Below the pieces are notes generated by a model. That model was given only the letters and a program-made list of their open reading frames with translations, made no database searches and was not told where the DNA came from. 37,053 nucleotides of DNA from contig CADCLN010000032.1 in the NCBI GenBank assembly GCA_902802265.1, positions 18,400-55,452 of the forward strand. Direction: 5' to 3'. Shown piece after piece: positions 1 to 13,985 of this stretch. The stretch is from an uncultured Bacteroidales bacterium. Its GTDB lineage: Bacteria; Bacteroidota; Bacteroidia; Bacteroidales; Bacteroidaceae. Position numbers and translations under genes: made by a program. Numbering within the stretch: position 1 is the stretch's first letter; each line of letters opens with the position of its first letter.

Positions 1-753
1 GTCTATCCAGGCCCTGGACGATGCCGCCACGGCCGTTGCGCAAGCACCCGTCCCACAAGCCATTGTGATACCACTTCCGCGCTCCCAAACACGCACACGA
101 ATACCGTCAGGACGCATTTCGGCAAATTCGATGTTAGTGCGCTCGGGAAACGCAGGGTGGTATTCTAGTTCTCTTCCTCTTTCTTCCACAGCGTCCACGT
201 TGTCCGTGAAGATGACATAGTGAGGATTACCCATTGAAACGAAAAGGGACTGACCCTCGGAACCACTCTCTATCCTCTCCCTAGAGGGTCTTCTCCCCCT
301 AGATGGGGAGTTAGAGGGGGTCTTTAAGAGTTTGGGATTAAACTGTTCTTCCTTTTCGAATACAGGTTCGCCCATATCCACTGTTACCGTATCGACGCTG
401 TTCGTTGGAGTAAGGTTCAGCCATAGAACCTTGATGCCGGAAAGTGTAAGTAGTCTGATTTCTGTCTTCTCGGTCAGCCCCTTCTCGTAAAGATACTTTC
501 CGATGCAGCGACAGGCATTTCCGCACATCATAGCTTCCGAACCGTCTGCATTGAAGATACGCATGGAGAAATCAGCTTCGGGAATGGGACTTCTACCAAT
601 CAAGACGAGCCCATCGGAACCTATTCCTTGGTGGCGGTCACTCCAAAGACGTGCCAACTCCGACGGATTGTCTATATTATATAATAATGTGTCAATGTAG
701 ATGTAGTCGTTGCCCGCACCATGCATTTTTGTAAAGCGAATAACCTGTTTCAT
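1..753 (-). CDS. dapF: Diaminopimelate epimerase DapF (C-terminus cut by window edge)
   Basis: DapF interconverts LL- and meso-diaminopimelate in lysine and peptidoglycan-precursor synthesis in the cytosol. I translated it on the minus strand from ATG 753-751. Visible family motifs are KMHGAGNDY near the start, [13 protein letters not shown] with the first catalytic Cys, SMGNPH, and [15 protein letters not shown] with the second catalytic Cys. About 251 codons are present and the last few tens of residues lie outside the window. Oddity: between VDMGEPVF and SMGNPH the protein carries a low-complexity stretch ([19 protein letters not shown]) encoded by a dispersed G/C-rich repeat at 282-325. 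The frame stays open through it, and it sits in what is normally a short variable loop between the two catalytic motifs. A minus-strand TAnnTTTG box at 803-810 lies just upstream. The identity is secure from both Cys motifs; whether the insert is tolerated is inference. Confidence 0.95.
282..325 (-). repeat. Dispersed hairpin repeat, copy 1, inside dapF
   Basis: Read on the minus strand, this is AAAGACCCCCTCTAACTCCC, then CATCTAGGGGGAGAAG and a degenerate second half (ACCCTCTAG). It matches the copies at 8494-8529 and 9653-9684 almost base for base. It is in sense orientation to dapF and is translated as [10 protein letters not shown]. The inner TCCCC...GGGGA arms can form a small stem. Confidence 0.85.
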
Positions 754-1010: not shown

Positions 1011-1358
1011 ATGAAGAAAATTGAAGCAATCATTAGGAAAACCAAATTTGAGGAAGTGAAAGAAGCTCTGCTCTCGTCGGACATTGACTGGTTTGAGTAT
1101 CACGACGTTCACGGCATCGGCCAGAGCCGACAGGAACGTATCTATCGTGGTGTTCAGTATTCAACGGATGTGATAGAGCGTGTGGCTATGACCATTGTCT
1201 GTCGCGACCAGTTCGTGGAGCCAACGGTGAAAGTAATCATTGATACCGCTCACACGGGTGAAATTGGTGATGGGCGCATCTTCGTGAGCGAAATGATAGA
1301 CACATGGAGCATCCGCACAGGGGAACATGGAGACACCGTATTAAGAGATAAAAAATAA
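1011..1358 (+). CDS. glnK: Nitrogen regulatory protein PII (GlnK/GlnB family)
   Basis: This is a small trimeric signal protein that senses 2-oxoglutarate and ATP/ADP and plugs AmtB when nitrogen is plentiful. At 115 residues it has the family length (112-115). It starts MKKIEAIIRK like E. coli GlnB. The T-loop reads RIYRGVQYSTD, with Tyr50 aligned to the uridylylated Tyr51 of E. coli after a one-residue deletion. The nucleotide-binding B-loop TGEIGDGR is at residues 82-89, followed by IRTGE. It lies 34 bases before amtB, the usual glnK-amtB pairing, and I name it glnK mainly on that context. Whether Tyr50 is modified here is unknown. Confidence 0.95.
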   Translation: MKKIEAIIRKTKFEEVKEALLSSDIDWFEYHDVHGIGQSRQERIYRGVQYSTDVIERVAMTIVCRDQFVEPTVKVIIDTAHTGEIGDGRIFVSEMIDTWSIRTGEHGDTVLRDKK

Positions 1359-1392: not shown

Positions 1393-2649
1393 ATGAACGA
1401 TATTGCACTTTCATTAGATACAGTATGGATGTTGTTGGCGGCTATGCTTGTGTTTTTTATGCAACCTGGCTTTGCGCTATGCGAGGCTGGTTTTACACGT
1501 AGCAAGAATACGGCCAACATTCTGTTTAAGAATTTTGTAGATTTCATGTTCGGCTCACTGTTGTTCTGGTTCATTGGTTTTGGATTCATGTTCGGATCGG
1601 ACGGTGCCGGCTTCATAGGAGCACCCAACTTCGGCGACCTTTCTTTTTATCGTGGCGATTTGCCAGTAGAGGGTTTCCTTATCTTCGAGACTGTTTTCTG
1701 CGCCACAAGCGCCACGATAGTCAGCGGTGCAATGGCGGAACGGACAAAGTTTTCGATGTACGTCATCTACAGTGCCATCATTTCATTGGTTATTTATCCC
1801 ATCGAGGGGCATTGGACTTGGGGCGGCGGATGGCTCTGCAATGATGCCACCGACGGCTTCATGATGCAGACTTTTGGCGACGCCTTCCATGATTTTGCTG
1901 GGTCGGCCATCGTGCACAGCGTGGGCGGTGTGCTGGCTCTGATAGGTGCAATGGCTTTGGGCGCACGGCGGGGTAAGTATGCCAAGGACGGTAGCAGCCG
2001 TGCCATTCCAGGTCACTCGCTGACGCTTGCAGCACTGGGGGTCTTTATCCTCTGGATGGGATGGTTCGGCTTCAACCCTGGATCGCAGTTGGCTGCCAGC
2101 GGTGCCGTCAATCGGATAGCCATCAGCCACGTCTTCCTGACGACGAACCTGGCAGCAGCGGCGGGTGGTGTCGCCACCATGTTCATCACATGGCTGAAGT
2201 ACAGGAAGCCGTCGTTCTCGTTGACGCTGAACGGTGTACTGGCGGGTCTGGTGGGCATTACGGCAGGCTGCGACCTTGTCTCGCCCGCAGGAGCCGTCGC
2301 CATCGGACTGGTCTGCGGAACGGTGCTCGTCTTTTCCATTGAGTTTATCGACCATGTGTTGCACATCGACGACCCTGTCGGCGCAAGCTCTGTCCATGGT
2401 GTCTGCGGCATCCTCGGCACGTTGATGACGGGGCTGTTCTCAACGAGCAACGGAGCTTTTTACGGCCACGGCTGGGGTTTCTTCGGTGCTGAGTGCTTTG
2501 GCATACTCGTCATTGACCTCTGGGCAGCAATGTGTGGCGGGTTGCTTTTCTTTGGCATTAAGGCGATTCACGGCTTGCGCGTGCCTGCCCGTATTGAGGA
2601 CGAGGGACTGGATGTGTATGAGCATGGAGAACTTTGTTATAATTCATAA
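1393..2649 (+). CDS. amtB: Ammonium channel AmtB
   Basis: This is an inner-membrane trimeric ammonium/ammonia channel of 418 residues. The sequence is almost entirely hydrophobic segments, consistent with 11 membrane helices. The twin-histidine pore pair is visible: His175 in HDFAGSAIVHSVGG and His335 in DDPVGASSVHGVCG. The CxxGF-like early motif LCEAGFTRSKN is also present. No cleavable signal peptide is obvious. It follows the PII gene at 34 bases. The stop codon (2647-2649) lies inside short AATTCNN heptamer repeats that lead into the next gene, with only 19 bases between them, so the three genes probably form one transcript expressed under nitrogen limitation (inference from the family). 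Confidence 0.97.
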   Translation: MNDIALSLDTVWMLLAAMLVFFMQPGFALCEAGFTRSKNTANILFKNFVDFMFGSLLFWFIGFGFMFGSDGAGFIGAPNFGDLSFYRGDLPVEGFLIFETVFCATSATIVSGAMAERTKFSMYVIYSAIISLVIYPIEGHWTWGGGWLCNDATDGFMMQTFGDAFHDFAGSAIVHSVGGVLALIGAMALGARRGKYAKDGSSRAIPGHSLTLAALGVFILWMGWFGFNPGSQLAASGAVNRIAISHVFLTTNLAAAAGGVATMFITWLKYRKPSFSLTLNGVLAGLVGITAGCDLVSPAGAVAIGLVCGTVLVFSIEFIDHVLHIDDPVGASSVHGVCGILGTLMTGLFSTSNGAFYGHGWGFFGAECFGILVIDLWAAMCGGLLFFGIKAIHGLRVPARIEDEGLDVYEHGELCYNS

Positions 2650-3415: not shown

Positions 3416-5032
3416 ATGAGTTCAAAATATATTTTCGTCACAGGTGGCGTGGTTTCGTCGCTGGGCAAGGGTATCATCGCTGCAAGTATTGGCAAGTTGC
3501 TACAGGCTCGCGGCTTCAGGGTCACGATTCAGAAGTTCGACCCCTACATCAATATTGACCCTGGTACGCTCAACCCCTACGAACACGGCGAGTGTTATGT
3601 GACGGCGGACGGCGTGGAAACTGACCTCGACCTGGGACATTATGAGCGTTTCACCGACATACGGACTACTCGCCACAACAGTATCACCACGGGTAGAATA
3701 TACAAGACGGTCATTGACCGTGAACGCCACGGCGACTATCTGGGCAGGACTATTCAGGTGGTACCACACATCACGGACGAGATAAAGAGGAGGATGTTGA
3801 GGGAGGACGGCGAGGACGAGGTGTTTGACTTCGTCATCACGGAGGTGGGGGGCACGATAGGCGACATCGAGAGTGCTCCGTTCATGGAGGCTATACGCCA
3901 GTTGCGTTGGCAGCTGGGGCAGGGTGCGGTGTGTGTACACCTGACGTATGTTCCTTACCTGCGAGCAGCTGACGAACTGAAGACTAAGCCTACGCAACAC
4001 TCTGTCAAGGAGATGCAAGGCATGGGCATCCAGCCCGACGTGCTGGTGCTCCGCACGGAACGCCACCTGGACGATGGGCTGCGCGGGAAGGTGGCTTCGT
4101 TTTGCAATGTGGATTTGGAGTGTGTGGTGCAATGCGAGGATATGCCCAGCATCTACGAGGTGCCTGTCAGTATGCAACGGCAGGGGCTGGACGCTGCCAT
4201 ATTGCGCAAGATGGGTATTGCGGTCGGCGAGACTCCAGCGATGGCGCCTTGGCACGTTTTTCTGGAAAAGCTGCATGGTGCCCAGCAGGAGGTGCACGTG
4301 GCTCTGGTGGGCAAGTATGACTTGCAGGATGCTTATAAGAGTATTCGCGAGAGCCTGAATCTGGCGGGCATCTACAACGGCGTGAGGGCTGTGGTTCATT
4401 TTGTCAACAGCGAGGGTTTAACGCAAGCGTGTGTGGCTGACAGACTGGATGGGGTGGCTGGCATCGTCGTTTGTCCTGGTTTCGGCCGGAGGGGTACGGA
4501 GGGAAAGGTGGTAGCCGCCGAATATGCACGTACACACGACATACCTGCCTTCGGAATATGCCTCGGTATGCAGATGATGGTCGTTGAGTTTGCACGTAAT
4601 GTGCTGGGGTATGACGACGCGAACAGTAGCGAGATGGACTCGCAAACGCCGCACAATGTCATCGACATGATGGAGAATCAAAAGGCGGTCACACAGATGG
4701 GCGGAACGATGAGACTCGGTGCATACGACTGCGAACTTGCAGAGAATAGTCGTGCCTACGAGGCTTACGGTCAGGTATCTTTTATCAGGGAAAGGCACAG
4801 GCATCGCTATGAGTTTAACAACGCCTACAGGGAGGCTTTCGAAAGGGCAGGCATGAAGTGTGTGGGTATCAACCCCACAGCCAATCTTGTCGAGGTTGTC
4901 GAGATACCATCGTTAAGGTGGTACATCGGCACACAGTTCCACCCCGAGTACACATCTACCGTGCTACACCCGCATCCACTGTTTATGTCGTTCATTAAAG
5001 CTTGCGTAAGATATGGAACAGTTAAAGCATGA
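3416..5032 (+). CDS. pyrG: CTP synthase
   Basis: PyrG makes CTP from UTP, ATP and glutamine. It is 538 residues, the normal length. The N-terminal synthetase domain begins KYIFVTGGVVSSLGKGI (residues 4-20) and contains the UTP/CTP site region GGTIGDIES near residue 145. The C-terminal class I glutaminase domain (from about 294) has the nucleophile Cys382 in FGICLGMQ and the His509/Glu511 pair in QFHPEY. The last 20 bases overlap the start of the PurF-like gene, so the two are probably translationally coupled. It follows the TorF-like gene by 57 bases. That gap holds an imperfect GGGGGAAGGCC / GGTCTCCCCCC hairpin, which could attenuate or terminate. Confidence 0.98.
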   Translation: MSSKYIFVTGGVVSSLGKGIIAASIGKLLQARGFRVTIQKFDPYINIDPGTLNPYEHGECYVTADGVETDLDLGHYERFTDIRTTRHNSITTGRIYKTVIDRERHGDYLGRTIQVVPHITDEIKRRMLREDGEDEVFDFVITEVGGTIGDIESAPFMEAIRQLRWQLGQGAVCVHLTYVPYLRAADELKTKPTQHSVKEMQGMGIQPDVLVLRTERHLDDGLRGKVASFCNVDLECVVQCEDMPSIYEVPVSMQRQGLDAAILRKMGIAVGETPAMAPWHVFLEKLHGAQQEVHVALVGKYDLQDAYKSIRESLNLAGIYNGVRAVVHFVNSEGLTQACVADRLDGVAGIVVCPGFGRRGTEGKVVAAEYARTHDIPAFGICLGMQMMVVEFARNVLGYDDANSSEMDSQTPHNVIDMMENQKAVTQMGGTMRLGAYDCELAENSRAYEAYGQVSFIRERHRHRYEFNNAYREAFERAGMKCVGINPTANLVEVVEIPSLRWYIGTQFHPEYTSTVLHPHPLFMSFIKACVRYGTVKA

Positions 5033-6761
5033 GTGTGGCGTAGCTATGGTGAGGCTCCTGAAACCACAGGGGTATTTCAAGCAGAAGTACGATTCTGGGG
5101 CTTATGCGCTCGAAAAGCTCTATCTGATGATGGAGAAGCAGCATAATCGCGGTCAAGAGGGAGCTGGCATCGCTTGTGTCAACATGGATTCGCCTGTTGG
5201 CACAGAGTATATGTTGCGCGAAAAGGCTCTGGGGAAGGATGCTATCACGGAGGTCTTCAGCAGGGTTACTCCCGAATGGTCGGAGGCTCAGCTTTTCATG
5301 GGGCACCTGCGCTACTCCACCACAGGAAGGATTGGCCTGCAGTATGTGCATCCGTTTTTACGCCGTAACAACTGGCGGGCAAAGAATCTTTGTCTCTGCG
5401 GCAACTTCAATATGACAAACATTGACGAGATTTTCCAGATGATGGTCAGACAAGGACAATCGCCACGCATCTACAGCGATTCGTACATCACGCTCGAACT
5501 GATGGGACATCGGCTGGACCGCGAAGCGGAACGATGTTTCGAAGAAGCAAAGAAGAAGGGTCTGCAGGATACTGATATTACCCGTTACATAGAGGATAAC
5601 GTGCAGATGGGCAATGTGCTGCGCACCACGATGGCTAAGTATGACGGCGGTTACGTCATGTGTGGCCTTACAGGCAGTGGTGAGATGTTTGCCATGCGCG
5701 ACCCTTGGGGCATCCGACCAGCCTTTTTCTACAGGAATGATGAAGTGGTAGCCGTCAGCAGTGAGCGTGCTGTGTTGCAGACAACCTTTGACCTCTGCTG
5801 TGAAGATGTAGAGGAACTGTCAGCAGGCGGAGCGATTATCGTTCACAAAAACGGTCGGTTCGATCTCGAATCCATCCTTCCACCGCAGATGCAGTCTCGT
5901 TGCTCGTTTGAACGCATCTACTTCAGCCGTGGTTCCGACCGCGATATCTACCGTGAACGCAAGCTACTCGGCAAGGGGCTCACAGCACCTATCCTTAAAG
6001 CCATCGATGGTGATGTTGAAAACACCGTGTTCTCCTTCATCCCCAACACAGCCGAGGTGGCTTTCTACGGCATGATAGAAGGACTGAGAAACCAAGGCTA
6101 CGATGTGCGCAGCGAGAAGGTGGCGTGGAAGGACGTCAAGCTACGCACCTTCATCACAGAGGCTGGCACTCGCAACAACTTAGCATCGCATGTCTATGAC
6201 ATTACCTACGGATCGCTACGCCCATATAAAGACAACCTTGTCATCATCGACGACTCGATTGTGCGCGGAACGACTCTGAAGGAAAGTGTCTTCAAGATAC
6301 TTGACCGACTGCATCCCAAGAAAATCGTGATGGTCAGCAGTTCACCACAAATCCGTTACCCCGACTATTACGGCATCGACATGGCGCGTCTGGAAGAATT
6401 CTGCGCTTTCCGTGCTGCTATAGAGCTCGCCAAGGAACGCGGCATGGGGCAGTTGGTGAACGACATCTACGAAGCCTGTCGTGCCGAACTACGCAAGCCA
6501 AATGAAAAACAGCAGAACTGCGTATGCTCTCTTTACAAGTCTTTCAGCGTGGAGGATATTAACCGAAAGATGGCAGAGATGTTGCGCCCTGCCAACATGC
6601 AAACACAGGTCGAGTTCGTCTTTCAGACTATCGAAGGACTTCATGCAGCCTGCCCCAACCACAAAGGTGACTGGTACTTCACCGGTCGTTATCCGACACC
6701 AGGAGGCAATCGGCTTGTCAACCAGGCATTTATCAAGTATGTTGAAGAAGACCCCCTCTAA
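5013..6761 (+). CDS. purF: Amidophosphoribosyltransferase-like glutamine amidotransferase (long PurF form)
   Basis: PurF transfers glutamine amide nitrogen to PRPP in the first step of purine synthesis. At 582 residues this is longer than the usual 470-505. The nucleophile is Cys8 in HECGV, implying removal of a seven-residue propeptide. The class II amidotransferase core follows (HNRGQEGAG, MGHLRYSTTG, LCGNFNM). The PRPP-binding loop IIDDSIVRGTT is at about 410-420. The C-terminal extension ends in GDWYFTGRYPTPGGNRLVNQ, resembling long Bacteroidetes homologues. It overlaps pyrG by 20 bases. The final residues EDPL and the stop come from a partial copy of the dispersed CCCCCTCTAA repeat. A second, standard-length PurF may exist elsewhere, in which case this one could have a different acceptor. 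Confidence 0.85.
   Translation: MEQLKHECGVAMVRLLKPQGYFKQKYDSGAYALEKLYLMMEKQHNRGQEGAGIACVNMDSPVGTEYMLREKALGKDAITEVFSRVTPEWSEAQLFMGHLRYSTTGRIGLQYVHPFLRRNNWRAKNLCLCGNFNMTNIDEIFQMMVRQGQSPRIYSDSYITLELMGHRLDREAERCFEEAKKKGLQDTDITRYIEDNVQMGNVLRTTMAKYDGGYVMCGLTGSGEMFAMRDPWGIRPAFFYRNDEVVAVSSERAVLQTTFDLCCEDVEELSAGGAIIVHKNGRFDLESILPPQMQSRCSFERIYFSRGSDRDIYRERKLLGKGLTAPILKAIDGDVENTVFSFIPNTAEVAFYGMIEGLRNQGYDVRSEKVAWKDVKLRTFITEAGTRNNLASHVYDITYGSLRPYKDNLVIIDDSIVRGTTLKESVFKILDRLHPKKIVMVSSSPQIRYPDYYGIDMARLEEFCAFRAAIELAKERGMGQLVNDIYEACRAELRKPNEKQQNCVCSLYKSFSVEDINRKMAEMLRPANMQTQVEFVFQTIEGLHAACPNHKGDWYFTGRYPTPGGNRLVNQAFIKYVEEDPL
6748..6761 (+). repeat. Dispersed repeat, copy 2 (partial), at the purF stop
   Basis: AAGACCCCCTCTAA is identical to the first 14 bases of the copy at 8496-8509. 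Here the TAA inside the repeat serves as the stop codon of the PurF-like gene. Confidence 0.7.
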
Positions 6762-6827: not shown

Positions 6828-8495
6828 ATGTGTGGATTTGTAGGTATTTTCAAGCCGGATGGCGATGTCCGGCAGAAACGTGAGCAGGCTCTGAAGATGT
6901 CTGCAAAAATACGTCATCGCGGACCAGACTGGAGTGGTATATATTGTAGTGACGCGGCTATCCTTGCCCATGAACGTCTCTCCATCGTCGATCCCGAGAG
7001 CGGCGGACAGCCGTTGTTCTCGACCGACAGGAAACAGGTGTTGGCTGTCAATGGCGAGATTTATAATCATCAGGAGATTCGCCGACGCTTTGCCGGACGG
7101 TATGAGTTCCAGACGGGCAGCGACTGTGAGGTCATCCTTGCGCTCTATCGGGAGAAGGGCATCGCTTTTCTTGACGAGGATATCAGCGGCATTTTTGCTT
7201 TTGCCCTGTATGATGAGCAGCGGGATGAGTTCCTGATTGCACGCGACCCTATCGGCGTGATTCCTTTGTATATGGGGCACGATGCCGACGGAACGGTGTA
7301 TGTGGCTTCGGAGCTGAAGGCGCTGGAGGGGTTCTGCGAGGAGTACGAGCCTTTCCCTCCTGGACATTACTATTGGAGCAGGGAACCTGGCTTGAAGCGG
7401 TATTACAGGCGCGACTGGTTCGGATATGATGCCGTGAAGGATAATGGGGCAAGCGCCGATGCCATTCGCGAGGGGCTGATGGCTGCCGTGAAGCGACAAC
7501 TGATGAGCGACGTGCCATACGGGGTGCTGCTCAGCGGCGGACTGGATTCTTCGGTCGTCTCTGCCATTGCCGAGAGGTTCAGCGAACATCGCATCGAGGA
7601 CGGTTCGCAGACTCGTGCCTATTGGCCTCGGCTGCATTCCTTCGCTGTGGGCTTGAAGGGGGCTCCCGACCTGGCAAAGGCTAAACTGGTGGCTGACAGT
7701 ATAGGGACGGTGCACCATGAGATTAACTACACGGTGCAGGAGGGTATCGATGCCATCCGCGACGTGATTTACCACATCGAATCTTATGATGTGACGACTG
7801 TCCGAGCCTCTACACCGATGTATCTGCTTGCCCGCGTCATCAAGTCGATGGGCATCAAGATGGTGCTGAGCGGCGAGGGCGCCGACGAGGTGTTCGGCGG
7901 GTATCTGTATTTCCACAAGGCGCCAAGTGCGAAGGCGTTTCATGAGGAGACGGTGCGCAAGCTGTCGAAGTTGCACTACTACGACTGTCTGCGTGCCAAC
8001 AAGAGTCTTGCGGCATGGGGCGTGGAGGGGCGTGTGCCTTTCCTCGACAAGGAGTTTCTCGATGTGGCTATGCGCACGAATCCGGAAGCGAAGATGTGTC
8101 GGGGAACCTGCATCGAGAAGAGGATTGTTCGCGAAGCTTTTGCCGATATGCTGCCTGCGGAGGTTGCCTGGCGCCAGAAGGAGCAGTTCAGCGACGGTGT
8201 GGGCTATTCGTGGATTGACTCGCTGAAGCGGATGACTGCCGAAGCGGTGACCGACGAACAGATGGCACGGGCTGCCGAGCGCTTCCCCATCAACCCGCCG
8301 CTGAACAAGGAGGAGTATTATTACCGCAGCATCTTTGCCGAGCTTTTCCCAAGTGATTCGGCTGCCCGAAGCGTCAACCAGGAGGCTTCTGTTGCTTGCT
8401 CTACAGCCATCGCCCTGGAATGGGATGCTTCGTTCAGAAATATGAACGAACCCAGCGGCCGCGCGGTGAAGGGGGTACATGAGGACCCTATTTAA
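6828..8495 (+). CDS. asnB: Asparagine synthetase B, glutamine-hydrolysing
   Basis: AsnB forms asparagine from aspartate, ATP and glutamine. It is 555 residues, the AsnB length. Cys2 (MCGFVGIF) is the class II amidotransferase nucleophile, with IRHRGPDWSG, NGEIYNH and GSDCEV following. The synthetase domain has the PP-loop LLSGGLDSSVVS near residues 234-245 and LSGEGADEVFGGYLYFHKAP near 345-365. It ends in the family C-terminus EWDASFRNMNEPSGRAVKGVH. The last residues (EDPI) and the stop border another repeat copy. It sits between the PurF-like and CarA genes with no visible promoter of its own, so cotranscription is likely. In Bacteroidetes asnB is often linked to glnK-amtB, which fits this location. 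Confidence 0.97.
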   Translation: MCGFVGIFKPDGDVRQKREQALKMSAKIRHRGPDWSGIYCSDAAILAHERLSIVDPESGGQPLFSTDRKQVLAVNGEIYNHQEIRRRFAGRYEFQTGSDCEVILALYREKGIAFLDEDISGIFAFALYDEQRDEFLIARDPIGVIPLYMGHDADGTVYVASELKALEGFCEEYEPFPPGHYYWSREPGLKRYYRRDWFGYDAVKDNGASADAIREGLMAAVKRQLMSDVPYGVLLSGGLDSSVVSAIAERFSEHRIEDGSQTRAYWPRLHSFAVGLKGAPDLAKAKLVADSIGTVHHEINYTVQEGIDAIRDVIYHIESYDVTTVRASTPMYLLARVIKSMGIKMVLSGEGADEVFGGYLYFHKAPSAKAFHEETVRKLSKLHYYDCLRANKSLAAWGVEGRVPFLDKEFLDVAMRTNPEAKMCRGTCIEKRIVREAFADMLPAEVAWRQKEQFSDGVGYSWIDSLKRMTAEAVTDEQMARAAERFPINPPLNKEEYYYRSIFAELFPSDSAARSVNQEASVACSTAIALEWDASFRNMNEPSGRAVKGVHEDPI

Positions 8496-8529
8496 AAGAC
8501 CCCCTCTAACTCCCCCTCTAGGGGGAAGA
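8494..8529 (+). repeat. Dispersed hairpin repeat, copy 3, between asnB and carA
   Basis: AAAAGACCCCCTCTAACTCC followed by CCCTCTAGGGGGAAGA is the cleanest copy. The arms TCCCCC and GGGGGA flank TCTA. It starts at the asnB stop codon. Confidence 0.85.
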
Positions 8530-8534
8530 TAAAA

Positions 8535-8555
8535 ATGGTAAATGGTAAATGGTAA
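8535..8555 (+). repeat. ATGGTAA heptamer repeat carrying three ATGs
   Basis: Three perfect ATGGTAA units put an ATG in each of the three reading frames (8535, 8542, 8549). The first two open frames of 6 and 5 codons that end in TAA; only the third continues into carA. Confidence 0.8.
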
Positions 8556-11434
8556 ATAATAATCGAGAAGCAAAATTAATACTGGATAACGGCACGGTGC
8601 TGAGTGGATGGTCATTCGGCGCGGAACGGAATGCCGTGGGCGAAGTGGTGTTCAATACGGCTATGACCGGCTATCCTGAAAGTTTGACCGATCCAAGCTA
8701 TGCAGGGCAAATTCTGGTGGCAACGTACCCGCTGATTGGGAATTATGGCGTACCTGATACAGGAGGCAAACCTTACCCCAGATTCATGGAGAGTGAACGC
8801 ATCCATGTGAAGGGGCTTGTCGTGGCTAATTATAGCGAGAGGTACAGCCACTGGAATGCGAAGGAGTCTCTCTCGGAGTGGCTGAAGCGAGAGGGTGTTC
8901 CTGCCATTACTGGCATCGATACAAGACGGTTGACCAAGTTGCTGAGGGAGCACGGGGTGATGAGCGGACGCGTGGTTGTGGAGGGGTGTGACAGCTGCGG
9001 GGCAGCGGAGGATTACGATGCTGTGGGATGGGTGGAGCAGGTGAGCTGCAAGGATGTCATCACCTATAAACCGAATGGGCTCGGTGCAAACGGGAAGGCA
9101 GCGAACAGCCGTTGCAGGAGGGTTGTCCTTGTTGACTGCGGCGTCAAGGCGAATATCATACGTTGTCTGCTGCAACGGGGAGTCGAGGTGGTGCGTGTGC
9201 CTTGGGATTATGATTTCAACCAGATGGACTTCGACGGTTTGTTTCTGACGAATGGCCCAGGTAATCCGGAGCAATGCAGCAAGACGGTGGATCATATTCG
9301 CACGTTTCTTCACCAGAAGGATGTGCGTCCCGTCATGGGCATCTGTCTGGGCAACCAGCTTTTGGCTCGTGCGGCAGGAGCAAGGACGTATAAGCTGAAG
9401 TATGGTCATCGGAGCCACAATCAGCCCGTGCGGCGTGTGGGCACTTCGCAGTGTTTCATCACAAGCCAGAATCATGGTTATGCGGTGGATGTGACGACGT
9501 TGCCTCCCGACTGGGAACCGCTCTTCGTGAACATGAACGACGGCTCCAACGAGGGTATCCGCCACAAGACGAATCCTTGGTTCTCGGCTCAGTTCCATCC
9601 CGAAGCTTGTTCTGGTCCCATGGACACAGAATGGATGTTTGACGAGTTTGTGAGGACCCTCTCTAACTCCCCCTCTAGGGGGAGGACGGGGAGGACGGGA
9701 GGACGGGGAGGATTTTTGCAGGGTAATCTCCCCAAGAAGGTCCTCTTGCTGGGTTCGGGTGCCCTCAAGATTGGACAGGCTGGGGAGTTTGACTACAGTG
9801 GTGCACAGGCATTGAAGGCTCTGAAGGAGGAGGGCATTGAATCGATACTCATTAACCCCAACATCGCAACGGTGCAAACATCGAAGGGTGTGGCAGACAC
9901 GGTGTATTTCCAACCCGTAACACCTGAGTTTGTTGAACGAATCATTGAGAAGGAACGGCCAGACGGCATCCTGCTGGGTTTCGGCGGACAAACGGCGCTG
10001 AACTGTGGCGTAGCGCTTTACAAGAGGGGTGTTTTCGAGAAGTACGGCGTGAGGGTTCTTGGTACTCCCATTCAGGCTATCATCGACACTGAGGACCGCG
10101 ACATCTTTGTCAAGCGTCTTGACGAGATTGGTGTGAAGACCATCAGAAGCGAAGCGTGCAGCACACGGGAAGAGGTGGAAAGGGCAGCTCGGACGTTGGG
10201 TTTCCCTGTGATTTTGCGTGCTGCCTACGCTCTTGGTGGACTGGGGTCTGGCTTTTGCGACAATGAGAAGGAGTTGTCGGCACAGGCCGAGGAGGCGTTC
10301 TCGTTTTCACCACAGGTGCTTGTGGAGAAGTCGCTGAGGGGATGGAAGGAAATAGAGTATGAGGTGGTGCGTGACTGTTACGACAACTGCATCACGGTCT
10401 GCAACATGGAGAATTTCGACCCGCTCGGCATTCATACTGGCGAAAGCATCGTGGTGGCTCCCAGTCAGACGCTCAGCAATAGCGAATACTACAAGCTTCG
10501 TGACCTGGCCATCAAGATTGTCCGCCACATTGGTGTCGTTGGCGAATGTAATGTGCAATATGCCCTCGACCCAAATTCGGAGGATTATCGGGTCATTGAA
10601 GTCAATGCCCGCCTCTCGCGTTCCTCGGCACTGGCCTCGAAGGCAACAGGCTATCCGTTGGCTTTCGTGGCTGCCAAGCTCAGTCTGGGCTATGGTCTGT
10701 TTGAATTGAAGAACTCCATCACCAAGACCACCAGCGCTTTCTTCGAACCAGCCCTCGACTATGTCGTCTGCAAGATTCCTCGTTGGGACCTCTCGAAGTT
10801 TCATGGCGTAAGCCATCAGATCGGTTCAAGCATGAAGAGTGTGGGCGAGGTGATGGCTATCGGACGCACTTTTGAAGAAGCTTTGCAGAAGGGGTTACGC
10901 ATGATAGGTCAAGGAATGCATGGATTCGTGGACAATCACGAAGTTAAGTTTTCCGATGTACCCAAGGCTCTCCTTCATGCCACCGACATGCGCATCTTCG
11001 CCATAAGCAAGGCTTTGCAGATGGGCTATTCGGTAGAACAGATTCACCGCTGGACGATGATAGACCGATGGTTTCTGGAGAAGCTGAAGCACATTGTGGA
11101 GGTCAACGACCGCCTTCGGGAATTGTCTTTCCTGACAGCGTATGCTGAGTGTTATGATTACTCGGAGTTCCTGGAATTTCTTGAGGCACCGGAAGTCTGC
11201 GGGTTGCTGAGAGAGGCAAAGGTTTGCGGCTTTTCCGACTTCCAGATAGGCAGGGCACTCGCTCTGGGAACGGACACGAAACAAGGCATGAAGTGTGTTG
11301 ACATGGAACAGGCTGGATTGACTGTGCGCAAATGGAGGGAAGAACTGGGCATCGTGCCACTTGTGAACCAGATTGACACACTTGCGGCTGAATACCCTGC
11401 CTCCACTAATTATCTGTATTTGTCGTATTTGTAA
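8549..11434 (+). CDS. carA: Single-chain CarA fused to the N-terminal half of CarB (carbamoyl-phosphate synthetase)
   Basis: The product is 961 residues. Residues 1-368 are a complete CarA glutaminase subunit: Cys266 in GICLGNQ, and His350/Glu352 in QFHPEACSG. Residues 370-391 ([20 protein letters not shown] and onward) are encoded by a dispersed repeat and replace the expected carA stop and carB start. Residues 393-961 match the first half of CarB: the carboxyphosphate ATP-grasp domain (LLLGSGALKIGQAGEFDYSG, GGQTALNCG, ALGGLGSGF, NARLSRSSALASKATGYPLA) and the helical connection domain. It ends AAEYPASTNYLYLSYL, where full-length CarB (about 1,070 residues) would enter its second half. That half, which makes carbamoyl phosphate from carbamate and carries the allosteric domain, is absent from the window. 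The CarB part resembles eukaryotic CAD, as in other Bacteroidetes. A terminator follows directly. The second half may be encoded elsewhere, may have been deleted, or may not be needed. Confidence 0.9.
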   Translation: MVNNNREAKLILDNGTVLSGWSFGAERNAVGEVVFNTAMTGYPESLTDPSYAGQILVATYPLIGNYGVPDTGGKPYPRFMESERIHVKGLVVANYSERYSHWNAKESLSEWLKREGVPAITGIDTRRLTKLLREHGVMSGRVVVEGCDSCGAAEDYDAVGWVEQVSCKDVITYKPNGLGANGKAANSRCRRVVLVDCGVKANIIRCLLQRGVEVVRVPWDYDFNQMDFDGLFLTNGPGNPEQCSKTVDHIRTFLHQKDVRPVMGICLGNQLLARAAGARTYKLKYGHRSHNQPVRRVGTSQCFITSQNHGYAVDVTTLPPDWEPLFVNMNDGSNEGIRHKTNPWFSAQFHPEACSGPMDTEWMFDEFVRTLSNSPSRGRTGRTGGRGGFLQGNLPKKVLLLGSGALKIGQAGEFDYSGAQALKALKEEGIESILINPNIATVQTSKGVADTVYFQPVTPEFVERIIEKERPDGILLGFGGQTALNCGVALYKRGVFEKYGVRVLGTPIQAIIDTEDRDIFVKRLDEIGVKTIRSEACSTREEVERAARTLGFPVILRAAYALGGLGSGFCDNEKELSAQAEEAFSFSPQVLVEKSLRGWKEIEYEVVRDCYDNCITVCNMENFDPLGIHTGESIVVAPSQTLSNSEYYKLRDLAIKIVRHIGVVGECNVQYALDPNSEDYRVIEVNARLSRSSALASKATGYPLAFVAAKLSLGYGLFELKNSITKTTSAFFEPALDYVVCKIPRWDLSKFHGVSHQIGSSMKSVGEVMAIGRTFEEALQKGLRMIGQGMHGFVDNHEVKFSDVPKALLHATDMRIFAISKALQMGYSVEQIHRWTMIDRWFLEKLKHIVEVNDRLRELSFLTAYAECYDYSEFLEFLEAPEVCGLLREAKVCGFSDFQIGRALALGTDTKQGMKCVDMEQAGLTVRKWREELGIVPLVNQIDTLAAEYPASTNYLYLSYL
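9653..9712 (+). repeat. Dispersed hairpin repeat, copy 4, forming the CarA-CarB linker
   Basis: AGGACCCTCTCTAACTCCCC CTCTAGGGGG is followed by a short tandem of GGACGGGGA-like units (9, 8 and 9 bases). It is in frame with both CarA and CarB and encodes the same peptide core SNSPSRGR as the dapF copy. No ATG lies between the repeat and the CarB core; the only alternative start is a TTG at 9716. Confidence 0.9.
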
Positions 11435-11466
11435 AGTTTTACAGGATTTTTGTTTCTGTCAATAAC

Positions 11467-11506
11467 AAACGAAACGACCGCGGGGATGCAGTTGTTTCGT
11501 TTTTTT
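11467..11506 (+). terminator. Terminator after carAB fusion
   Basis: AAACGAAACGAC (11467-11478) pairs with GTTGTTTCGTTT (11491-11502), a 12-bp stem with one G-U pair, followed by a T-run. It ends the plus-strand transcript and faces the minus-strand lipoprotein gene, so it may act in both directions. Confidence 0.85.
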
Positions 11507-11527
11507 GCAGAAGTTGCAAGCACTTTT

Positions 11528-12258: not shown

Positions 12259-13269
12259 TTATTTGTTTAGTGCAAGTGCTACGTTCACGGCGCAAGCTAC
12301 GGTGCAACCTACCATTGGGTTGTTGCCGATGCCGAGGAAGCCCATCATTTCTACGTGGGCTGGCACTGAGCTGGAGCCTGCGAACTGTGCGTCGGAGTGC
12401 ATACGTCCCAGTGTGTCGGTCATACCGTAGGAGGCTGGACCTGCTGCCATGTTGTCTGGGTGCAGGGTGCGACCTGTACCACCACCGCTGGCTACTGAGA
12501 AGTAGGGCTTGCCGGCGAGGACGCGCTCCTTCTTGTAAGTACCTGCAACGGGATGCTGGAAGCGTGTGGGGTTGGTGGAGTTGCCTGTTATGCTGACATC
12601 AACGTTCTCTTTCCAGAGGATGGCTACGCCTTCACGCACGTCGTCTGCACCGTAGCAGTTCACTTTGGCGCGTGGACCGTCGCTGTATGCCTTGGTCTTT
12701 ACGACTTTGAGTTCGCCCGTGAAGTAGTCGAACTGTGTCTGCACGTAGGTGAAGCCATTGATGCGGCTGATGATCATGGCAGCGTCTTTGCCCAGACCGT
12801 TGAGGATGCAGCGGAGTGGCTTTTTGCGTACCTTGTTTGCCATTTCAGCAATCTTGATGGCACCTTCGGCTGCTGCAAATGATTCGTGGCCTGCCAGGAA
12901 GGCGAAGCACTCTGTCTCTTCGCGGAGCAGACGTGCTGCGAGGTTTCCGTGACCGATACCTACCTTGCGGTCGTCAGCTACGGAGCCAGGGATGCAGAAT
13001 GCCTGCAGACCGATGCCGATGGCTTCGGCTGCGTCGGCAGCGTTCTTGCAGCCTTTCTTGATGGCGATGGCACTGCCCACAACGTAAGCCCACTTGGCGT
13101 TCTCGAAGCAGATGCGCTGTGTTTCTTCACAAGTCATGTATGGGTCGAGACCTGCTTTTTCGCAGATTTCGTTAGCCTCTTCGATAGAGGAAATGCCGTT
13201 CTCGTTCAAAGCAGCCAGAATCTGCTTCATGCGACGGTCCTGTGATTCAAATTTTACTTCGCGTATCAT
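12259..13269 (-). CDS. GGGtGRT family protein
   Basis: The product is 336 residues. It contains the family name motif GGGTGRT at 262-268, followed by HPDNMAAGPASYGMTD, the conserved C-terminal block of this uncharacterised family. It is soluble, with no signal peptide and many Gly and Cys residues (Cys47, Cys54, Cys74, Cys92, Cys121). The start is supported by a strong AAGGAGG 9 bases upstream, which overlaps the stop of the preceding scaffold gene. That implies translational coupling and a common complex or pathway. In known genomes GGGtGRT genes are found next to Fe-S scaffold-like genes, as here; the biochemical role is not established. The family call is firm, the function open. Confidence 0.9.
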   Translation of the reverse strand: MIREVKFESQDRRMKQILAALNENGISSIEEANEICEKAGLDPYMTCEETQRICFENAKWAYVVGSAIAIKKGCKNAADAAEAIGIGLQAFCIPGSVADDRKVGIGHGNLAARLLREETECFAFLAGHESFAAAEGAIKIAEMANKVRKKPLRCILNGLGKDAAMIISRINGFTYVQTQFDYFTGELKVVKTKAYSDGPRAKVNCYGADDVREGVAILWKENVDVSITGNSTNPTRFQHPVAGTYKKERVLAGKPYFSVASGGGTGRTLHPDNMAAGPASYGMTDTLGRMHSDAQFAGSSSVPAHVEMMGFLGIGNNPMVGCTVACAVNVALALNK

Positions 13270-13278
13270 AGTCTTTTT

Positions 13279-13285
13279 CCTCCTT
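13279..13285 (-). promoter_or_regulatory. Strong Shine-Dalgarno for the GGGtGRT gene
   Basis: The minus strand reads AAGGAGG, 9 bases before ATG 13269 and overlapping the upstream TAA. This is unusual in Bacteroidetes, where most genes lack such a site. Confidence 0.7.
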
Positions 13286-13985
13286 ATTCTTTACGTGGAT
13301 CAATTGATTTAACAACTCCCTGCTCTGGCTTTGTGCGGCCGTATGTGCCGGTTACGCTCTTCAGTGCTTCGTTGGCGTCCATGCCCTTCTTCACTGCTTC
13401 CATGAACTTGCCCATGTGTACGTACTCGTAGCCACAAACTTCGTTGTCCTCGTCGAGGAACATCTTGGTGATGTAGCCTTCGGTGAGCTGAAGGTAGCGA
13501 GTGCCCTTGAGCTTCGTGCCGTAGAGTGTACCGCACTGGCTGACAAGTCCCTTGCCGAGGTCTTCCAGGCCTGCACCGATGACGAGACCGCCCTCAGAGA
13601 AGGCTGACTGTGTACGGCCATAGACAATCTGGAGGAAGAGTTCGCGCATGGCGGTGTTGATGGCGTCGCAAACGAGGTCGGTGTTGAGGGCTTCCAGAAT
13701 AGTCTTGCCTGGAAGGATTTCACTCGCCATGGCAGCAGAGTGTGTCATGCCGGAGCAACCAATTGTCTCAACCAGACACTCTTCGATGATGCCTTCCTTC
13801 ACATTGAGCGAGAGCTTGCAGCAACCCTGCTGAGGTGCGCACCAGCCAATGCCGTGGGTCATGCCCGAAATGTCTTTGATTTCTTTTGCCTGAATCCACT
13901 TTCCTTCTTCGGGAATAGGGGCTGGTCCGTGGTTAGGACCTTTGGCAACGCAGCACATTTCCTGTACTTCTTTTGAATAAACCAT
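13284..13985 (-). CDS. IscU/NifU-like iron-sulfur cluster scaffold protein, GGGtGRT partner
   Basis: The product is 233 residues. The central part resembles the IscU/NifU-N fold: VETIGCSGMTHSAAMASEIL-PGKT parallels the IscU block around its second ligand Cys. Possible ligand Cys are Cys49 and Cys55/56 in GWCAPQQGCC, Cys77 in GCSGM, and Cys151 in SQCGTLYG. An extra Cys pair (Cys11/12) is near the start. It is about 100 residues longer than IscU, with an added C-terminal part (GYEYVHMGKFMEAVKKG). It is the first gene of the pair with GGGtGRT (13-14 bases between them). A role in Fe-S assembly is inferred from the fold; it lies apart from any isc, suf or nif genes here, so a dedicated client is possible. 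Confidence 0.8.
   Translation of the reverse strand: MVYSKEVQEMCCVAKGPNHGPAPIPEEGKWIQAKEIKDISGMTHGIGWCAPQQGCCKLSLNVKEGIIEECLVETIGCSGMTHSAAMASEILPGKTILEALNTDLVCDAINTAMRELFLQIVYGRTQSAFSEGGLVIGAGLEDLGKGLVSQCGTLYGTKLKGTRYLQLTEGYITKMFLDEDNEVCGYEYVHMGKFMEAVKKGMDANEALKSVTGTYGRTKPEQGVVKSIDPRKE

Follow-up and report, generated by a model that had tools for sequence, protein, structure and literature searches.

Engineered halves of CarB, the synthetase subunit of carbamoyl-phosphate synthetase (CPS), reportedly carried out both ATP-dependent steps of the reaction in the work of Guy and Evans in 1996, Guy et al. in 1997 and Serre et al. in 1999. The two CarB halves of E. coli are functionally equivalent except in regulation, according to a review (PMC6245113). 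A natural half-size, dimeric CPS, the 41-kDa "smallest CPS" of Methanobrevibacter smithii, was reported by Popa et al. (2012; cited in PMC6022934), but a later phylogeny found this protein not close to CarB, and a role in pseudomurein was proposed for it (PMC11915815). No report of a natural glutaminase joined to a single synthetase half, an arrangement called GLN-CPS.A, was found in the literature searched, with subscription papers mostly outside that search. Here we examine a gene at 8549-11434 of a 37,053-nucleotide stretch of DNA (the window) from an uncultured Bacteroidales bacterium of the Bacteroidaceae (assembly GCA_902802265.1, contig CADCLN010000032.1), whose 961-residue product consists of CarA followed by one CarB half. 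Judging from sequence comparisons, we lean towards the view that it is a natural GLN-CPS.A CPS, a homodimer that takes its nitrogen from glutamine and operates alongside CarB2, a complete paralogue that would use ammonia.

The gene occupies a single forward-strand frame of 961 uninterrupted codons. In its product, Pfam identified CPSase_sm_chain (residues 10-141), GATase (193-369), CPSase_L_D1 (396-511), one CPSase_L_D2 (516-718) and CPSase_L_D3 (807-902), with neither a second L_D2 nor an MGS domain. The NCBIfam model for CarA, TIGR01368, matched residues 8-371 with 448.8 bits, above its cut-off of 307.35. The CarB model TIGR01369 reached 839.4 bits, short of its cut-off of 1027, and covered model positions 6-542 of 1052 only; the broader CarB model NF003671 was passed (711 against 599), yet it too was matched over positions 8-541 of 1058 only. 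Cys266, His350 and Glu352 were invariant across 12 aligned fused proteins, the window protein among them. Alignment with human CPS1 and E. coli CarB places the C-terminus, NYLYLSYL, at the boundary between the CarB halves, and because the frame ends after the first half, the protein is not a full single-chain CarA-CarB fusion. It has the domain make-up of GLN-CPS.A, with a glutaminase joined to one CarB-type half and intact active-site residues. A first-pass annotation of the window had described a full CarA with these three residues, then CarB up to the half boundary, a stop and a strong terminator. The frame, Pfam and NCBIfam confirm the protein so described, and RNA folding of 11435-11512 bears out the terminator, with a 12-pair stem whose 3' arm enters a run of seven U (z = -3.4); a simple terminator scanner reported none on the + strand after 11434.

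To establish how widely the half occurs, we searched relatives with the window protein, and also 399 genomes sampled from the family. The half was found in at least 40 genomes from six genera, which is a lower bound; 40 half-bearing genomes were analysed further, and 47 non-redundant halves remained once near-identical rows were dropped. All 47 stop between one residue before and three residues after the window's end, with C-termini of the form AAEYPAxTNYLYxx(Y/F). In other relatives CarB is full length, at about 1070-1120 residues, and CarA is either fused to it or encoded on its own. Among 80 loci kept of 596, 13 named ones (L068-L080) carry the half; their titles describe uncultured or metagenome-assembled drafts of Prevotellaceae, Prevotella, Bacteroidaceae and Bacteroidales, several naming goat, sheep or deer gut, and RUG in record titles presumably denotes rumen genomes. 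In a phylum sample, 51 of 395 genomes gave a match at E <= 1e-200, and the short frames were the window's own and one of 586 residues in G838.

This distribution bears on whether the second half was simply lost from the source genome by deletion or misassembly, as the first-pass annotation had allowed. The source assembly is a draft (2.88 Mb in 63 contigs, 85.65% complete), which would favour a pseudogene, deletion or misassembly confined to it. Against this, the same half recurs in at least 40 genomes of the family, its end varies by only one to three residues among the 47 halves, three half-bearing genomes are 99% complete (G130, G322 and G438), and the halves are under purifying selection. 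We rejected misassembly and recent deletion on the shared end, and give a defect of this one genome next to no credence; by these comparisons, 8549-11434 is neither a misassembly nor a decaying gene.

A tree of first halves was built from 173 sequences, comprising the 47 halves, 85 other full-length CarB, 40 CarB2 rows and E. coli. A CarB was placed in the full-length set of 85 if it was complete and less than 75% identical to the CarB2 second half; two of these rows (L113b and L122b) branch with CarB2, and the 40 CarB2 rows include some genes fetched twice. The halves group together as a single clade (support 100), on a stem branch of 0.34 changes per site, and this clade is placed among the CarB1 proteins (the CarB of ordinary carAB loci) of Prevotella-like relatives, at nodes supported 80-90. 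On this tree, the second CarB half is shown to have been lost once, from an ordinary carAB locus within the Bacteroidaceae/Prevotella group. A CarA tree did not recover the half type as one clade (3 changes), without forcing more than one origin.

Residue conservation was evaluated at nine catalytic positions chosen on the basis of work on E. coli CPS. All nine (R129, R169, E215, H243, Q285, E299, N301, R303 and R306, E. coli numbering) are invariant in 47/47 halves, and the Cys/His/Glu triad is kept in 48/48 half-linked CarAs; the 85 full-length-linked CarA rows of this comparison include E. coli CarA itself. Fixation of at least 97% among the full-length rows and of at least 90% in CarB2 singled out 201 alignment columns; the halves keep 186 of these fixed at 97% or more. 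The ratio of nonsynonymous to synonymous substitution (dN/dS) was 0.020-0.114 for nine pairs of halves, against 0.016-0.041 for full-length first halves (six of seven pairs, the seventh being saturated); on these values the halves are under strong purifying selection, slightly weaker than that on full-length first halves. That the half is an intact enzyme kept by selection is well supported by these comparisons. The carbamate-tunnel residues A23, E25, R306, M378 (taken by us as part of the tunnel) and E383 are likewise invariant in all 47 halves. A23 is named as a tunnel residue in PMC6241538, and E25, R306 and E383 align, counted on 6uel, with human Glu440, Arg721 and Glu797, which are named as such in PMC4655335. 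R306 excepted, these residues are known mainly for carbamate passage to the second site, and conservation of the tunnel loop and of the R306 and M378/E383 stretches in the halves is about that of the full-length set.

The first-pass annotation had also suggested that the second half might be a separate gene. Such a split synthetase, with CPS.B encoded apart, is known in Aquifex (PMC6022934). A second-half query found no detached CarB1-type second half in any of the 40 half-bearing genomes, most of them drafts; it found CarB2 instead, and the only other loose piece was a 199-residue frame of 35% identity in G170. A PF02786 search of the source genome matched the half and each of the two CarB2 halves, and otherwise gave three weak hits. 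We therefore rejected an Aquifex-type CPS.B gene, and consider a split synthetase very improbable here. Nor did a remnant appear downstream when seven second halves were compared by tblastn with 46 downstream pieces of 309-3000 nt, the window's included; only two chance-level matches (E about 0.7) were returned, and the positive control worked.

An AlphaFold model of the half alone (63 rows) had a mean predicted local distance difference test (pLDDT) of 82.6 and a predicted template modelling score (pTM) of 0.84, and adopted the CarB fold. Compared with E. coli CarB or with human CPS1 in its ligand-bound form, it had a template modelling score (normalised by query length) of about 0.84, against 0.72-0.73 for the apo form; a model of the whole protein (12 rows, pLDDT 48.4) was set aside. 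Two of the four lowest-confidence stretches, 14-25 and 367-375, contain the tunnel loop and M378, and low confidence there would fit a missing partner, though this is only suggestive. In human CPS1 the phosphorylation domains form a pseudohomodimer whose tunnel is built evenly by both (PMC4655335). Given this even construction and the equivalence of the E. coli halves, a homodimer would rebuild the tunnel symmetrically.

In the mechanism we propose, two copies of the half would pair like the two halves of ordinary CarB, while the CarA parts would free ammonia from glutamine. One half of the dimer would make carboxyphosphate and then carbamate, and the partner half, reached through the symmetric tunnel, would phosphorylate the carbamate. 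Continued travel of carbamate to a second site would best account for the retention of the tunnel residues. We infer that the half dimerises, forms carbamoyl phosphate and has a role related to nitrogen. Within a nitrogen-metabolism cluster (glnK, amtB, pyrG, purF-like and asnB), the CarA-half protein would serve as the synthetase that depends on glutamine, and CarB2, complete and independent of CarA, would make carbamoyl phosphate from free ammonia.

The half might instead have ceased to make carbamoyl phosphate, becoming a glutamine-driven module that forms carboxyphosphate or carbamate, or an ATPase, with a new or regulatory role, while CarB2 makes all the carbamoyl phosphate. CarB2 could cover the supply in 38 of the 40 genomes, and in contrast to ordinary carAB, the half has pyrG and asnB as neighbours, along with glnK-amtB in loci with a long enough flank. 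The long stem of the half clade could also reflect such a change, as could three positions that are fixed in full-length CarB and mostly changed in the halves (E. coli 67, L to Q in 45/47; 155, A to V in 46/47; 527, K to N in 40/47). However, carbamate-tunnel residues would be of little use without a second site and are nevertheless kept in every half, and halting at carbamate would waste ATP, since carbamate released to water is lost. We regard this explanation as unlikely.

The source genome also encodes CarB2, a complete CarB of 1076 residues from its ATG, on another contig. The CarB2 second half was found in 38/40 half-bearing genomes, with the CarB2 frame short or cut in four of them (G364, G356, G170 and G188); the two without it are G335 (63% complete) and G133 (87% complete). 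Within the window's genus, CarB2 second halves are 93-97% identical. For comparison, 149 genomes at least 95% complete were classed by hand, with CarB1 taken as a match at E <= 1e-230, G147 and G150 left out as unclear and G056 counted as CarB2-only. One further observation concerns a 99% complete genome with a full CarB1 (L066/L226, G002:C52), in which CarB2 is split into overlapping frames of 529 and 611 residues.

Several observations weigh against the half being a working GLN-CPS.A. CarB2 accompanies the half in 38/40 genomes and a full CarB1 in 74/129 genomes at least 95% complete (Fisher p = 2e-6, without correction for kinship); with half genomes held to that completeness too, the counts are 6/6 and 74/129 (p = 0.08). 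The truncation may be tolerated only through cover by CarB2, and because CarB2 nearly always co-occurs, the half cannot be credited with supporting the cell alone; the idea of the half as sole synthetase of its cell is not supported. The dN/dS of the halves is somewhat above that of full-length first halves, and we found no activity or oligomer data for any half-type member. The first-pass annotation had proposed a natural GLN-CPS.A and had counted a second complete carB explaining a loss of function against it. Its proposal gains from the single clade, the intact sites and tunnel, purifying selection and the absence of a remnant, and is weakened by the complete second CarB. Such a gene is indeed present, but it does not explain a loss of function, because the half shows no sign of one; with CarB2 in the source genome, carbamoyl phosphate need not come from the half alone. 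The fuller version of the GLN-CPS.A proposal is a return to the pre-duplication state, as a homodimer that performs both phosphorylations and has no regulatory domain. In gut Bacteroidaceae it would be co-expressed with P-II and AmtB, and would use glutamine in partnership with a CarB2 that uses ammonia. To this combination we assign an even chance.

CarB2 itself appears to work without CarA, since CarA is absent from 15 of the 17 searched genomes that have CarB2 and no CarB1-type match, including the single-contig G053 and G402. The two exceptions are G197, which has an unrelated second CarAB pair, and G056, where the CarB is cut by a contig end. The substrate of CarB2 is presumably ammonia. 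At the position of C232, part of the ammonia gate of E. coli CPS (PMC6241538), CarB2 has Ala in 56/56 rows, some genes being counted twice, and at that of R265 it has Gln (Lys once), whether the genome lacks CarA, has a full CarB1 or has the half; 47/47 halves and 83/85 of the full-length set keep Cys and Arg. The change at C232 sets CarB2 apart but does not prove that it uses ammonia, because ammonia-using CPS1 retains this Cys (PMC4655335). Gaps at E. coli positions 18-25 in 27/40 CarB2 rows are a trimming effect and not losses.

These data bear on another explanation, in which the CarA-half protein is a glutaminase subunit for CarB2, docking with it and feeding it glutamine-derived ammonia, with the half as a scaffold. 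The source genome has one CarA match, the window's, there is likewise one per genome in 40/40 half genomes, and CarB2 is nearly constant among them. But a scaffold needs no intact ATP site of its own, the two gate positions of CarB2 are alike in all three genome classes, and only 2 of about 1050 positions set CarB2 of half genomes apart from CarB2 of CarA-less genomes. On this last count we rejected an adaptation of CarB2 as partner of the half, and the feeding role as a whole seems to us distinctly improbable. There was also no clue to special users of carbamoyl phosphate in half genomes: two carbamoyltransferase matches were found in 10/10 of them and in 24/28 other genomes searched. Of ten CarA-less genomes searched for these enzymes, eight gave two matches.

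Some variants of these systems were observed along the way. The CarB2 proteins of nine CarA-less genomes (L236-L244), with Ala at the ammonia-gate Cys, are likely ammonia-dependent bacterial CPSs of the CarB type. Two genomes of genus g13, G150 and G197, carry a different CarA-CarB pair (L218 and L219), 37-41% and 44-45% identical to the window protein; at the cut-offs applied, G150 gave no match of CarB1 type and none to CarB2.

The gene order in the window is dapF (-), glnK, amtB, an open reading frame of unknown function, pyrG, purF-like, asnB and CarA-half, all on the + strand after dapF (Table 1); dapF was named from its sequence, and the gene at 1011..1358 is taken to be a P-II nitrogen regulator of the GlnK/GlnB type. 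Within the available flanks, asnB was near 21/23 half loci and 0/15 full-length loci, purF-like near 21/23 and 8/15, pyrG near 15/23 and 1/15, and amtB, further off, near 5/23 and 0/15. In an additional eight half loci, of which one or more overlap the first set, asnB was seen in seven, pyrG in eight and the same amtB in three; two further full loci had neither asnB nor pyrG. In Prevotella ruminicola 23, ammonium-assimilation genes and dapF are followed downstream by a similar cluster, made up of a P-II gene, amtB, a hypothetical gene and asnB, which responds strongly to ammonium, in a direction on which the text of PMC5552732 contradicts itself. A special pyrG paralogue in the window's cluster was rejected, as 23/24 genomes searched have one CTP synthase (none in G410). 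The PurF-like protein is probably a paralogue of PurF. At 12259-13985 (-), a GGGtGRT-family protein adjoins a weakly NifU-like one.

CarA is fused to the half in 37/47 cases, and in 10/47 the half is a separate gene that follows CarA; one member whose frame is cut by a contig end (H_L171) was counted as fused by hand, the uncorrected count being 36 + 11. The 35 linkers measured span 10-65 residues and have little sequence in common. Because the linkers are unrelated, several of them repeat-like, and unfused members are scattered through the first-half tree, CarA and the half were probably joined more than once. The window's linker begins in a dispersed palindromic repeat (9659-9683) and continues in frame through an imperfect tandem array of GGGGAGGAC at 9679-9712. 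The 25-nt repeat, CCCTCTAACTCCCCCTCTAGGGGGA, occurs three times in the window at one mismatch or fewer, with none expected by shuffling; one copy is in frame inside dapF, another lies in the asnB-carA gap, and the third is read in frame within the linker. It resembles the in-frame palindromic elements of Rickettsia, and fusion possibly came about through in-frame insertion of such repeats. Seven of the 47 half proteins, among them that of the window, have stretches like PSPxGEG, PLSPWRG or NSPSRGR, located in CarA loops, L_D3 or linkers. Separately, 17 of the 85 full-length CarB rows (L019, L020, L062, L063, L081, L087 and others) are full-length CarA-CarB single chains, mimicking the eukaryotic arrangement.

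Table 1. Features of the window, with positions counted from its first letter
Feature	Position	Strand	Basis or remark
CarA part (glutaminase; CPSase_sm_chain and class-I GATase; Cys266, His350, Glu352; residues 1-371)	8549..9661	+	
Linker between CarA and synthetase half (residues about 372-394)	9662..9730	+	repeat sequence read in frame
CPS.A half (preATP-grasp, one ATP-grasp, L_D3 oligomerisation domain; residues 395-961)	9731..11431	+	
Stop codon TAA	11432..11434	+	
Rho-independent terminator, 12-pair hairpin then T run	11467..11506	+	RNA folding
P-II nitrogen regulator (GlnK/GlnB-like)	1011..1358	+	named from its sequence
Ammonium transporter amtB	1393..2649	+	Pfam
CTP synthase pyrG	3416..5032	+	Pfam; only CTP synthase match in genome
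PurF-like amidophosphoribosyltransferase homologue	5013..6761	+	140 bits, below TIGR01134 cut-off of 350
Glutamine-dependent asparagine synthase asnB	6828..8495	+	Pfam
Repeat CCCTCTAACTCCCCCTCTAGGGGGA, copy 1	294-318	-	sequence search of window
Repeat CCCTCTAACTCCCCCTCTAGGGGGA, copy 2	8502-8526	+	sequence search of window
Repeat CCCTCTAACTCCCCCTCTAGGGGGA, copy 3	9659-9683	+	sequence search of window

It is already known from engineered proteins that a single half suffices for the whole reaction, and the natural example from M. smithii is disputed. If our proposal is true, a conserved natural GLN-CPS.A would open the proposed pre-duplication enzyme to direct study, and would show that the CarB duplication can be undone; the pairing with CarB2 suggests a division of labour between ammonia and glutamine in carbamoyl phosphate synthesis by gut bacteria. 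Among known systems, the ordinary Bacteroidales carAB CPS is nearest in the tree (CarA about 61-66% and CarB1 first half about 71-73.5% identical to the window protein in the full loci compared) and shares a purF-like neighbour at some of its loci, but the window's half lacks the second ATP-grasp half and the MGS regulatory domain, and has asnB and pyrG beside it. CarB2 is about 56-64% identical to the half over the first half, and differs in being full length and in occurring without CarA in 15 searched genomes. The A. aeolicus CPS (CarA, CPS.A and CPS.B) offers a free CPS.A polypeptide (PMC6022934), but there CPS.B is encoded and three chains assemble, whereas no CPS.B gene was found in half genomes. 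The M. smithii protein has a single synthetase domain, its lack of a glutaminase being inferred from its size, while the window's half is plainly derived from CarB. The engineered GLN-CPS.A and CPS.A homodimers share the design of the window protein, with the same order of glutaminase and one synthetase half; they are laboratory constructs, whereas the gene described here is natural and conserved, and a half-size glutamine-using CPS, so far familiar mainly as an engineered product, may occur naturally.

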